From a virus, in IMG/VR virus record IMGVR_UViG_3300020054_000606, positions 1-25,168 of that record: 25,168 nucleotides of DNA, one strand, 5' to 3'. A program made the translations under genes and the position numbers. The notes beneath the pieces are model-generated. The model saw nothing but the letters and a program-made list of their open reading frames with translations. It did no database searches and had not been told where the DNA came from. Below are positions 20,840-24,982 of this stretch, piece after piece. Positions within the stretch are counted from its first letter, which is position 1. Each line of letters opens with the position of its first letter.

Positions 20840-21071
20840 TGTTGATCTGCTTTCTAAGAGCCTCAACTTGGCCCTCAAGTTTGAGGAGCTCATCATGGTA
20901 GTCATCCAATCTCCCAATGATGTCCTCCTGCTCTTGGCGCTCGAGGTCAAAGCGCTTGTTGACGAACGTCCAAAGCATATACATGAGGCCCACAGTAACA
21001 ACAGCCACAAGGTTGCTGGGGTCTAAGACCTTCTCAATGAGGCTAGGTGGAAGGGCGGTAGGGTCAGCCAT
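20832..21071 (-). CDS. Membrane-anchored coiled-coil protein (DUF2730-like)
   Basis: This 79-residue protein has a single hydrophobic segment at about residues 20-37 (NLVAVVTVGLMYMLWTFV) followed by Lys/Arg and a heptad-patterned coiled coil (RQEQEDIIGRLDDYHDELL, KLEGQVEALRKQ). Small proteins with this layout, including DUF2730, occur in Mu-like phages next to lysis and terminase genes; their role is not established. It might help lysis or anchor something at the inner membrane. I see no second membrane segment or signal peptidase site, so a classical two-pass holin is unlikely. The start overlaps the terminase stop by one base (TAATG). Confidence 0.7.
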   Translation of the reverse strand: MADPTALPPSLIEKVLDPSNLVAVVTVGLMYMLWTFVNKRFDLERQEQEDIIGRLDDYHDELLKLEGQVEALRKQINNG

Positions 21072-22456
21072 TAGAAGCTCCTTGAGTTGGTAGAGATGCC
21101 AACCTTTCTATCTCTGCTAGGTCGGCGCCTTGGAGTATACGCTGAGCGCTGCACAGCGTCAGCCCAATAATGGAAGATGCAATCATAACGCAGAGCGTCA
21201 AGAGGGTCCTCACGCCCATCCTTCTTAGGTTGCTCTTTAGAATCCCACGCATAGCTGAGGAGCGCCTTCCTTAAACTGTTACCTATAGCGCGCTCGCCCT
21301 TGTCCCAGACCTCCTTGGTGATGAGGTAGCGGTTGCGAGCAAAGGCGCGCTTGAGTCGTTGGACCCCATTGAGGATGTCCACCCTCACAGGGTCTGTGGT
21401 GTGTCTCAGAGTCATTCCAAGGCCACCCGCTCCCACCTCCTTTGACATCTCACGGAAGGCTGAGCGCCCTGTGTGGTCTGATCTAGCCTTGCCTGCTTTG
21501 TCAGCCACTCCACTATCAAGCCATATCCGTGGCCCAGGGGCTGAGGCTTTATCTGAGCGAGGCCACGCCACCCTAAGAATCATCTCACACAGCTGAGCTA
21601 TGGTGACCTCCTGTGGGTTGATCTCATGAGCGATGATTGACGCCTCACGCTCCTCATCAAACACAATGATCAGAACGCTTGGCTTTCTGAAGCCCCAATC
21701 TATAGCCACGCGCGCGGTCATCTCCTCACGATAGGTGAAGTCATCTATCACATGACGTGAGCTGTCGAACTCTTGATAGACCAAGCCTGAGGGAGGCTTA
21801 GGCTTATTCATCACCATGGCCTCACGCTCATCCTCAGGGAGAAGCTTGGTAGCTTCAAACCACTCAGCGCTGAGGTTGTTTTGGTTTACATAGGAGGTGA
21901 AGAGGAGGGGATGGATGCCAGCTGACTCAGCCATCTGACACCACCAAGCGTCAGCCACAGGCAGGCCTACCAAGATGAGGGTGGGTGTTGGCCCTGACCT
22001 CAAGCGCCCCAAAGCCTTATGAGCTACCTCAGCGCCAAGGGTCTGACACTCATCAATGAGCGCCACGCCTGAGGTGACATTGATTCCCTCAAGGGGATTA
22101 TGTGAGGCGTCCCTTGTCCCTGGTCGATAGTAGGAGCGACAGAGGACCGCTGAGCCTGTGTGGTTGTCAGTCCATTTGTGAAGGGTGTGGTTGTAGGTCC
22201 ACCCTCTTGGAGCTAGCCACTTTTCGATCTCAGGCATTAGCACAGAGTTATAGCGTGGCGTGGTGTCTGTGATGAGGAGGGAGGTGGTCCCTGGTCGAAT
22301 CTTAGCCACAAACCACAGGGCGAAAATCAAGGAGCTCGTCTTACCTGAGCCCCATCCACAGCGCGCCGCGATGATCTTATCCTTACGCCTGATTCCCCTG
22401 ATGATCTCACGTTGGAGGTCATTGAGGATAAAGTCTTTGGATGCTTCCTCACTCAT
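21071..22456 (-). CDS. terL: Terminase large subunit
   Basis: This 461-residue protein is the packaging motor and nuclease. The ATPase domain shows a Walker A at 34-41 (GWGSGKTS), with Lys39 and Thr40; Walker B VALIDE at 131-136 with catalytic Glu136; and a likely coupling motif LVGLP near 162-166. The nuclease domain has the expected acidic triad: Asp253 in AIDWGFRKPS, Asp314 in WLDSGVADK and Asp417 in REDPLDALRYD. The basic C-terminus (TPRRRPSRDRK) may contact the portal or DNA. The start follows AGGAGCTCCC, and the upstream stop TAG lies inside that site. Length is normal and no key residue is missing. Confidence 0.95.
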   Translation of the reverse strand: MSEEASKDFILNDLQREIIRGIRRKDKIIAARCGWGSGKTSSLIFALWFVAKIRPGTTSLLITDTTPRYNSVLMPEIEKWLAPRGWTYNHTLHKWTDNHTGSAVLCRSYYRPGTRDASHNPLEGINVTSGVALIDECQTLGAEVAHKALGRLRSGPTPTLILVGLPVADAWWCQMAESAGIHPLLFTSYVNQNNLSAEWFEATKLLPEDEREAMVMNKPKPPSGLVYQEFDSSRHVIDDFTYREEMTARVAIDWGFRKPSVLIIVFDEEREASIIAHEINPQEVTIAQLCEMILRVAWPRSDKASAPGPRIWLDSGVADKAGKARSDHTGRSAFREMSKEVGAGGLGMTLRHTTDPVRVDILNGVQRLKRAFARNRYLITKEVWDKGERAIGNSLRKALLSYAWDSKEQPKKDGREDPLDALRYDCIFHYWADAVQRSAYTPRRRPSRDRKVGISTNSRSF

Positions 22457-22464
22457 GGGAGCTC

Positions 22465-23403
22465 CTAGCTCTCTTCAATTAACTTAATCAGCTCGGCTTG
22501 GTTGATTCTGAGCTTTAGCTTATGCGCTCGCTTGGTGTAGCCCCTTATCACGCCAAGCTCTGCCAGCTCCCTCAGAGCACACCTGACTGTGGTCATGCCC
22601 ACACCCTCCTCAAGCCAAGGCTCAATCTGACTGAGGAAAGTGGTTGGCTCATAAGGCCACTCAAGCACACAGTTGAGCACAGCCTTCTGAGCTTTGGTGA
22701 GCCCTGATGTCCTGATGAGCTCGATAAGCTGACCGCTGGTCATCTCAACCTGAGGAGGGAGAGCGGGCTGAGGAGGGGTGACAGGCTGAGGCTGGCTGAC
22801 CTTCTTAGGTAAGCTCACCACGCTGAAGAAGTCATAGGGGTTGACCATGCCTGACATCGCGCGGTCGAGCTCAGCCAAGGAACTCCAGAACCCGCGCCCC
22901 ATAGGGGTGTGCATCCCTCCTGTGTCCCTTCCCCATACCATGAACACGCTAAAGGGCTGAGAGTGGTGGAGAGTAGTGCTCTGTGGTGGCGCTCGATAGA
23001 TGCCAAGGGCTACCACCCACAGGGCGTCAGCGCTTTGAGCTGCCTGTTGGAGCTCAAGGAGGCGTGAGCCCATCCCCTCTAAGACCTGACCCATGACGTC
23101 ATAGGGCTTTGAGACGTCCTCAAGCTTGACGTAGCGGGTCTTGACCTCGAGCGCCGCCACCACCTCAGCGTCACGCTTGGCTAAGATGAGGTCGCAATAC
23201 TTACCAGGGTCAGGCCATTGAGGGTGATGAGCCTCAAGCGGGTGAGGTGTTTCATGGAAGTTACCCCACCGCGCGCTCTCAATGATGCTGATGAGTAAGC
23301 CCTGAAACCTGTTATGGATTCGCGTGGTGGCTGTTTTCATGTCCTGCTCAGTCCAAGCTGGGGCTAAGACAGGGCGGTTGATTTTAAGAGGGTGGTGTGT
23401 CAT
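22465..23403 (-). CDS. PD-(D/E)XK nuclease-like domain fused to a winged-helix DNA-binding domain
   Basis: This 312-residue protein lies between the two terminase genes. Residues 20-135 look like a PD-(D/E)XK nuclease: a helix with Glu42 (RFQGLLISIIESARWG), then PDPGKYCDLIL with Asp71, then AALEVKTRY with Glu86 and Lys88, which gives the D...E-x-K core, followed by a helix containing GQVLEGMGSRLLELQQ. A linker rich in Pro and Gln follows (SQPQPVTPPQPALPPQ, 203-218). Residues 222-303 look like a winged helix: LTKAQKAVLNCVLEWPYE, a recognition-helix candidate MTTVRCALRELAELGVI, then a basic wing (RGYTKRAHKLKLRI). I know no named family with this pairing. The ATG follows AAGGACAGAT. A site-specific nuclease acting in packaging or host DNA breakdown is possible, as is an autoregulator. 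Confidence 0.8.
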   Translation of the reverse strand: MTHHPLKINRPVLAPAWTEQDMKTATTRIHNRFQGLLISIIESARWGNFHETPHPLEAHHPQWPDPGKYCDLILAKRDAEVVAALEVKTRYVKLEDVSKPYDVMGQVLEGMGSRLLELQQAAQSADALWVVALGIYRAPPQSTTLHHSQPFSVFMVWGRDTGGMHTPMGRGFWSSLAELDRAMSGMVNPYDFFSVVSLPKKVSQPQPVTPPQPALPPQVEMTSGQLIELIRTSGLTKAQKAVLNCVLEWPYEPTTFLSQIEPWLEEGVGMTTVRCALRELAELGVIRGYTKRAHKLKLRINQAELIKLIEES

Positions 23404-23425
23404 ATCTGTCCTTGGCTGCTTGTAG

Positions 23426-23478
23426 CCTTCCCCATGTGGAGCTCCTTGAAGGTGTGGACATGTGAAGCATGGGGAAGG
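23426..23478. repeat. Inverted repeat with 11-base arms between terS and the nuclease-wHTH gene
   Basis: CCTTCCCCATG at 23426-23436 and CATGGGGAAGG at 23468-23478 are exact inverse copies separated by 31 bases. The spacer holds GGAGCTCC, CCTTGAAGG and ACATGT, all short palindromes. The repeat fills most of the 84-base gap, the longest noncoding stretch in this packaging region. The read-out strand has no T-run after the stem, so it is not a typical intrinsic terminator. A packaging site or operator is possible. Confidence 0.85.
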
Positions 23479-23487
23479 GTGTGAGCT

Positions 23488-23961
23488 TTAATCTTCGTCT
23501 GAGTCTATGATCTCATTAGTCTGCTCAATCATAGCGATGACCTCAGGAATCCCATCAGCCTTCTTAGCTGTGATCTCTACTTCCTTCTTATCACCATACT
23601 CCTGAGGGAATCGGCGAGCCATCATCCAAGAGATGGCGCGCCAATCCTTATCATCACTCTGTGAGATAGCCTGCATCATGTGGACCTCCATGGTCCCAAG
23701 GCCCTCATTCTTAGCTTCCTCTACAAGGCTCCTGATCTCTGGCTCCTTATCCATCCACTCATAGAGTGATGATATTGGGAAGCGAGATGAGCCACAGGCG
23801 CCTCTGATTGATTGACCATCTCTAAGGCGCTCAATGAGCTCTATGAATCTAGGGTCCTCATGCGCGCGCGCGTTAATGTTCCGTGTCTCCTTATTAAGAG
23901 CCTCAACGTCACCCGCCTCACGCGCCGCTAAACCCTTCAGATCATCTGCTGTTTTACTCAT
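23488..23961 (-). CDS. terS: Terminase small subunit
   Basis: This 157-residue protein has the features of HTH-type small terminases. Residues 38-80 (FIELIERLRDGQSIRGACG, then FPISSLYEWMDKEPEIRSLV) form the DNA-binding helix-turn-helix. Residues 107-131 (WRAISWMMARRFPQEYGDKK) are the conserved 'W-x-x-x-R-x-F-P-x-x-Y-G' hinge, and an acidic C-terminus follows (EIIDSDED), probably the large-subunit contact. It marks viral DNA for packaging. The ATG overlaps the end of the sigma gene by eight bases (ATGAGTAA), so both are probably translated together. It is separated from terL by the nuclease-wHTH gene and not adjacent to it as usual. Confidence 0.85.
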   Translation of the reverse strand: MSKTADDLKGLAAREAGDVEALNKETRNINARAHEDPRFIELIERLRDGQSIRGACGSSRFPISSLYEWMDKEPEIRSLVEEAKNEGLGTMEVHMMQAISQSDDKDWRAISWMMARRFPQEYGDKKEVEITAKKADGIPEVIAMIEQTNEIIDSDED

Positions 23962-24516: not shown

Positions 24517-24891
24517 TCAAGGCCATGAGCTCCCATCAGGTGACCAGGTGGCTGGTCCTTGGTTGCTTATGGCGTTGCGCTCGCTCGATTGCTTAGAGCT
24601 GACAAATTGCCAAGTGTCGACCACCACGTCAACGTCTAGCTGTTTAACGCCATTCTTTTCCCATGTGTTGGTCTTGAGCTTGCCTGTGATGGCGAGCGTG
24701 TCACCCTTCTTCACATGGTTGAGGATAGCCTCAGCGGTGCGCCTGAAGGCCACACAATTAAACCATTGGGTGTCCTTTTCCCCGCCCTTCTTTCGTGAGT
24801 CCACAGCCAAGCTAAACTTAGCTATTCCACCATCAGCCCCGCGCGCCTCTGGGTCCCTGCCAACGTTGCCAATCAAAATGATATGGTTCAT
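24517..24891 (-). CDS. ssb: Single-stranded DNA-binding protein
   Basis: The 124-residue product starts at MNHIILIGNVGRDPEARG, the conserved N-terminus of bacterial-type SSB; the ATG at 24891 has GGAGAGACT before it. The OB fold continues with IAKFSLAVDS, TQWFNCVAFRRTAEAIL and GDTLAITGKLKTNTWEKNG, with the conserved Trp43 and Trp76-like aromatic positions for stacking on DNA. The C-terminus ends WSPDGSSWP and lacks the acidic D-D-x-I-P-F tip with which bacterial SSB recruits repair proteins. It may therefore act only on phage DNA. It is the first gene of the leftward block and probably serves replication or recombination. Confidence 0.9.
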   Translation of the reverse strand: MNHIILIGNVGRDPEARGADGGIAKFSLAVDSRKKGGEKDTQWFNCVAFRRTAEAILNHVKKGDTLAITGKLKTNTWEKNGVKQLDVDVVVDTWQFVSSKQSSERNAISNQGPATWSPDGSSWP

Positions 24892-24982
24892 AGTCTCTCC
24901 ATCAATGGGGTTAGTGAGGAGCAGAGAGGAGGCAATATGGCCACCCTCAAGCCCTCGGTCCCTTAACACATGAGAGGCTTAC
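24892..24982. promoter_or_regulatory. Divergent intergenic region between ssb and thyX, probably with two promoters
   Basis: These 91 bases separate the leftward ssb start from the rightward thyX start, so promoters for both directions must lie here or within the flanking genes. I do not see a convincing -35/-10 pair of the housekeeping type on either strand. The region contains the ribosome binding sites of both genes. The absence of clear sigma-70 boxes would fit promoters for a phage sigma factor, but this is inference. Confidence 0.5.

Follow-up and report, generated by a model that had tools for sequence, protein, structure and literature searches.

An inverted repeat in the packaging region of an uncultured phage is probably (roughly 70%) a one-way intrinsic terminator, which acts on the + strand and faces against the packaging operon. 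The repeat lies in a noncoding gap of the window, that is, the whole stretch of 25,168 nt analysed here (IMG/VR record IMGVR_UViG_3300020054_000606, positions 1 to 25,168). The hairpin, its strand, its conservation without conservation of sequence and its U-tract emerge from the comparison of sequences among relatives, and a previously unexplained repeat of an uncultured phage thus becomes a testable regulatory element.

The gap and its bordering genes

The genes around the gap are all encoded on the - strand, in the order ssb, a sigma-like gene, TerS, a 312-aa protein, TerL, a DUF3310 gene and a Mu-type portal. Three of them have the following coordinates and assignments:

23488-23961, - strand: terminase small subunit (TerS), Sf6 type (PF20901, E 1.8e-9; phrog_1482)
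22465-23403, - strand: 312-aa protein, called the nuclease for convenience; D71...E86-x-K88, PD-(D/E)xK-like by motif only, with an exchangeable C-terminal domain
21071-22456, - strand: terminase large subunit (TerL) (phrog_2, E 1.5e-13)

The 312-aa protein has no match in Pfam or PHROG; the invariant residues D71 and E86-x-K88 point to a PD-(D/E)xK nuclease. Matches of its C-terminal part to HTH regulators are weak and non-significant (E 0.16). Protein searches with TerS, the nuclease or TerL returned no cultured relatives, and the portal has distant matches in actinophages only (about 25% identity).

The gap itself spans 84 nt (23404-23487) between the ORFs of TerS and the nuclease, as had been described. 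The original prediction called it the only sizeable gap of the cassette. It is indeed the largest in the run from ssb through the sigma-like gene, TerS and the nuclease to TerL, but a gap of 60 nt follows TerL and another of 77 nt is found elsewhere in the window. In addition, the ssb ORF as listed (24517-24969) has a GTG start, whereas relatives use an ATG which matches position 24891. A start at 24891 would leave ~90 noncoding nt before thyX, and thus the gap of the hairpin would not be the sole noncoding stretch.

Architecture and folding of the hairpin

The predicted inverted repeat was recovered exactly: its arms of 11 bp each, CCTTCCCCATG (23426-23436) and CATGGGGAAGG (23468-23478), are perfectly complementary and are separated by 31 nt, within which the three small palindromes that had been reported are present (GGAGCTCC, ACATGT and the odd palindrome CCTTGAAGG). 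The window contains 16 inverted pairs of at least 10 nt with a spacing of up to 60 nt, and the mRNA-strand fold of the gap has a z of -1.8. In a single sequence alone the repeat is modestly unusual; the comparative data put it far beyond chance. On the + strand, folding, the same fold in all alleles of the clade and the pair counts define a longer structure:

23418-23486, + strand, antisense to the packaging operon: hairpin
23418-23424/23480-23486, + strand: outer stem of 7 bp with three G·U pairs (GCUUGUA/UGUGAGC)
23425/23479, + strand: 1x1 mismatch between the outer and inner stems
23426-23437/23467-23478, + strand: inner stem of 12 bp, which takes in the reported 11-mer
23487-23495, + strand: T-rich tail TTTAATCTT, the terminator U-tract, which abuts the stem and overlaps the TerS stop codon

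The + strand hairpin of the window reaches -33.9 kcal/mol (z -3.9; none of 200 shuffles as good), and its 19 bp with one mismatch make the stable, G+C-rich stem that characterizes an intrinsic terminator. The mRNA (sense) strand also folds in the window, at -24 kcal/mol. Among nine representatives, the antisense folds show z values from -2.6 to -7.6 and the antisense energy is lower than the sense energy in all nine; for instance, L121 has -32.4 against -12.6. An energy-only terminator scan of the 25-kb window ranks the site fifth and is too noisy to pick out any site, so the case rests on comparison. Rfam models gave no match in the window at the gathering score.

Conservation among relatives

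Close relatives were retrieved from IMG/VR with TerS and the nuclease, and searches with patterns of the element led to contigs of the same type. An alignment built from divergent nucleases yielded 79 loci, which were collapsed to 31 distinct upstream regions. In 28 of these 31, a strand-neutral stem search located a hairpin 16-57 nt ahead of the same nuclease gene; the remaining three (L092, L100 and L135) have a weak hairpin or none. In L135, upstream of position 2501, a hairpin of the L134 type has lost its 5′ arm and kept the 3′ arm, either through a recent deletion or because the contig is chimeric.

The hairpin sequences are unrelated between subfamilies and amount to about nine, the window and its closest relatives being non-independent samples. 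The element is always placed directly upstream of the nuclease start. Between the element and TerS, many relatives carry a GIY-YIG-type gene and others a 41-codon ORF or nothing, which indicates that the element tracks the nuclease start and not TerS. A look for the same inverted repeat beside terS in relatives had been suggested as a check. The shape of the hairpin is kept, the arm sequence varies, and it is the nuclease start that the element follows. In distant relatives devoid of an inserted gene, the stem search detected a different hairpin, which overlaps the 3′ end of TerS.

A mobile or repeated element was rejected as an explanation, since the pattern occurs once per contig and its tighter version matches only this locus in viral contigs. 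A looser version gave one chance match in viral contigs (L031), and the sole match in a bacterial genome (L058) is a chance combination of a Shine-Dalgarno sequence and an ATG.

Direction of the wobble pairs

The strand on which the structure works was read from the changes in its stems. In the first alleles compared, the arms showed two-sided changes (T-A to C-G, A-T to G-C), and all one-sided changes produced A·C on the gene strand and G·U on the opposite one. With a search score that gives G·U on either strand equal weight, the one-sided changes in the best stems of the 31 regions amount to 70 G·U on the antisense strand and none on the sense strand. Related alleles share changes, so that the 70 do not equal 70 events; about nine unrelated hairpin sequences agree in the direction. 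Control stems from the same loci show no such bias (89 antisense against 103 sense G·U), and therefore compositional skew was ruled out as the source of the bias.

Within the alignment of the window clade, the antisense strand pairs in 149 of 152 stem cells, with 40 G·U and no A·C, and the sense strand in 109. The inner stem has two-sided changes at five of its 12 pairs and its covariation (0.421) exceeds both that of shuffled alignments (0.284, reached by none of 500 shuffles) and that of slid controls. The outer stem likewise varies through compensation and wobble within the clade.

The structure thus appears to work on the antisense strand and to be broken on the mRNA strand, so that the operon can be read through. 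The simplest reading of this asymmetry is that termination is needed one way and is to be avoided the other way. The direction of such a terminator can be read from the wobble pairs alone; the element is retained among phages with nucleases of only about 40% identity, and the wobble test is reusable on other phage gaps.

The T-rich tail

The repeat had been said to lack the T-run of an intrinsic terminator. This is correct for the gene strand, which has no T-run and carries mismatches in the stem, and for the immediate surroundings of the 11-mer; it does not hold for the + strand, where the extended stem (23418-23486) is followed by TTTAATCTT. In detail, the eight bases after the 11-mer are not T-rich, and a tail scored there falls at the 73rd percentile. 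Most of these bases form the 3′ half of the 7-bp outer stem, with UUUAAUCUU directly after. When scored after the extended stem, the tail of the window (2.97) is at the 99.5th percentile of the antisense-strand background from loci of the same clade.

Similar values (96.6-99.6th percentile) were obtained after the folded stem in seven of nine alleles from the window clade or L121. In 13 representatives the post-stem tail averages 2.72 compared with 1.43 for the background, a value reached in none of 100,000 resamples. In L022 and L084 the fold takes up the T-rich tail, and the scores are ordinary. L131, L134, L137 and L144 present a textbook hairpin with a T-run, which directly follows the antisense hairpin as TAGTTTTAGG in L131, TTGTTTTAGG in L134 and TTTCTTTTTG in L144; the U-tract is stronger in L134 and L144 than in the window.

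On this comparison, an RNA antisense to the nuclease gene would form a long stem with few gaps, ahead of a U-tract, and would end between the nuclease and TerS. In the packaging mRNA, A·C mismatches would take the place of the G·U pairs of the antisense RNA; with these mismatches and no U-tract, the operon should be read through.

As in known intrinsic terminators, a G+C-rich hairpin leads directly into a T-rich stretch, the sequence is free to change and the loop varies in length (4-31 nt). Unlike them, this element points against its own operon, its one-sided wobbles keep its strength in one direction only and the T-tract of the window is modest (TTTAATCTT). Directionality of terminators is described as mattering for antisense transcription in a synthetic system in E. 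coli (PMC4731013); compared with that system, the present element is natural and is kept across a phage clade.

A putative antisense promoter and a predicted short RNA

Two further features are proposed on the + strand:

23378-23406, + strand: putative antisense promoter; -35 TTGATT (23378-23383), N17, extended -10 TGT-CATATC (23398-23406); overlaps the nuclease start codon
23412-23495, + strand: predicted short antisense RNA of about 80 nt, with a short 5′ tail, the hairpin and a U-rich end, from the geometry of promoter and terminator

A sigma70-like sequence, TTGATY-17-(TGn)CATNNN, overlaps the nuclease start with exact spacing in 30 of the 31 distinct regions, two of which lack the TG; only L121 is without it. 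The median promoter score is 5.3 at nuclease starts and -0.1 at 140 other gene starts of the same loci, 6% of which score above the nuclease median.

The codons were inspected because the promoter-like sequence sits in homologous coding sequence. Codon 8 of the nuclease (Ile) is ATC in 20 of 21 sequences, while the codons of Ile-29 and Ile-41 vary; ATCAA is retained where Lys has replaced Asn-9; and the third base of codon 2 is A in every one of the 21, whether the residue is T, P, A, K or R. This constraint at the codon level supports a promoter. A preference for A at the start codon could explain part of it, and part of the conservation may be translational, since the sequence lies in conserved coding sequence near a start codon. 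Elsewhere in the nuclease gene no synonymous constraint is seen, and a strong antisense promoter deeper in this gene was rejected for that reason.

The terminator most plausibly serves, with odds a little short of even, to end a short antisense RNA from the promoter overlapping the nuclease start codon. Such an RNA, of about 60-100 nt, would pair with the leader of the nuclease mRNA just upstream of its Shine-Dalgarno sequence and could dampen translation of the nuclease, as RNAII of plasmid pMV158 does for repB. The start that we infer (about 23412) would place the 5′ end of the RNA at about the Shine-Dalgarno sequence and leave the start codon uncovered. If real, this RNA would show how these phages restrain a nuclease encoded between the terminase genes. 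A literature search returned nothing relevant on antisense RNA at terminase genes.

RNAII, whose single hairpin lies between a tail of 17 nt and a U-rich end of 8 nt and which inhibits repB translation (PMC4485353), is the closest RNA described. It shares with the predicted RNA one hairpin flanked by a single-stranded 5′ tail and a U-rich 3′ end, as well as an antisense position and an action against the translation of one gene. The predicted RNA differs in its longer stem (up to 22 bp), in a 5′ tail that is short in the window (about 6 nt) and in its target, which would be a nuclease of the phage.

A terminator facing the same way may also function with no dedicated RNA, by halting stray antisense transcription from the structural genes and so shielding the TerS, sigma and ssb genes. 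We regard this as possible rather than likely. It accounts just as well for the hairpin, the strand bias and the U-tract; furthermore, all genes left of the site are on the - strand, both in the window and in a 38.9-kb relative (G001), so any + strand RNA there would be antisense. However, it leaves unexplained the promoter-like sequence at a fixed distance from the nuclease start and gives no account of why almost all of the clade has the hairpin at the same gene start.

The loop palindrome

23438-23445, no strand assigned: loop palindrome GGAGCTCC, identical to the core of AGGAGCTCC at the TerL ribosome-binding site (22458-22465)

The loop palindrome GGAGCTCC is found in the window clade and in L121, precisely the subfamilies in which TerL uses AGGAGCTCC as its ribosome-binding site. 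Likewise, the loop sequence GGAGCUCC and a matching TerL ribosome-binding site AGGAGCUCC co-occur in these two and were seen in no other subfamily. The loop could pair with the TerL ribosome-binding site; since the subfamilies share ancestry at the locus, the match is a lead and not a test. It is doubtful that a dedicated, structured antisense RNA of ~60-100 nt is part of the packaging cassette throughout the clade and acts on the nuclease in cis and, in the window clade, also on TerL via the loop.

GGAGCTCC is also the most frequent 8-base palindrome of the window (14 copies, e.g., at 22458, 23438 and 1347), and the same applies to L154. Two of its copies in the window act as ribosome-binding sites, for TerL and for a gene starting at 1343 on the - strand.

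Other explanations of the repeat

The original prediction offered a cos/pac site, an operator or an RNA hairpin between the genes. The last of these stands as far as the hairpin is concerned, which lies, however, on the strand opposite to the genes and resembles a terminator.

A hairpin of the sense mRNA, acting as a leader structure, as an RNase site or in the control of an 11-codon leader ORF (MGKATSSQGQI) with its Shine-Dalgarno AGGAG in the loop, is quite improbable. The mRNA strand of the window does fold and AGGAGCTCC is a usable Shine-Dalgarno sequence, but the one-sided changes without exception disrupt the stem on the sense strand (0 against 70), and covariation on the sense strand is refuted by the wobble direction. 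The leader peptide from AGGAGCTCCACATG was rejected as not conserved: L002, L003 and L022 have GCG in place of its ATG, and L047 lacks the ORF.

A hairpin in single-stranded DNA of the + strand, for instance a site of priming or nicking, would also be expected to show wobbles biased to one strand, since such DNA accommodates G·T more readily than A·C. Up to eight G·T in 22 pairs (L102) would make a poor stem in DNA, and the T-tail would be left without explanation; this possibility is very improbable.

A cos or pac site, bound by TerS and marking the genome end, would suit the position beside terS, and contigs L007, L042 and L045 begin or end near the junction, although at differing positions and in a setting where variable regions also break assemblies. 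Both this site and an operator are disfavored because DNA-binding domains of TerS and C-termini of the nuclease are swapped while the element stays the same. TerS is modular (window 23488-23961; L012, L014, L022), with a DNA-binding half of two types, 47-49% identity overall and a C-terminal segment, KKEVEITAKKADGIPEVIAMIEQTN, identical across both. A near-identical element accompanies both types; the TerS proteins of L014 and the window are 49% identical, and their hairpin regions differ by one base. Moreover, the arms change across the clade with complementarity kept, contrary to a fixed protein-binding site, and a site in duplex DNA does not predict wobbles biased to one strand. Some families have almost no gap, and in them the hairpin reaches into TerS codons. 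Finally, G001 (38.9 kb, 127-nt end repeat) opens inside structural genes; this opening fits a circular map and does not locate the virion ends. A genome-end site is thus a very slim prospect.

An operator for the nuclease's own C-terminal (wHTH) domain, in spite of its dyad symmetry and place beside that gene, is barely credible, since this domain is replaced by an unrelated one in L022 (1543-2487) and L023 (3001-3942), the first 200 residues being nearly identical, yet their element still matches that of L082 or L078, and since the sequence is not conserved and the wobbles fall on one strand only.

Additional elements of the cassette

An accessory slot is located between TerS and the hairpin. 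It holds TerS-like (PF20901) HTH repeats joined to a GIY-YIG-related T5orf172/MUG113 domain, or this domain alone, in L004 (3473-4480), L012 (3242-3628), L014 (2133-2912), L047 (1507-2517) and L071 (1724-2605), and it is empty in the window. The hairpin was rejected as the homing target of this GIY-YIG-like gene, because L014 has the gene, the window does not, and their elements are almost alike.

A second, strong hairpin is present in the thyX-ssb intergenic region of L102, L103, L110, L145, L100, L086 and L125, just before ssb and ~1450-1600 nt upstream of the nuclease start. Its wobbles are on the sense strand and its tail is T-rich in some cases. It is possibly a promoter-proximal attenuator of the ssb-to-TerL operon.
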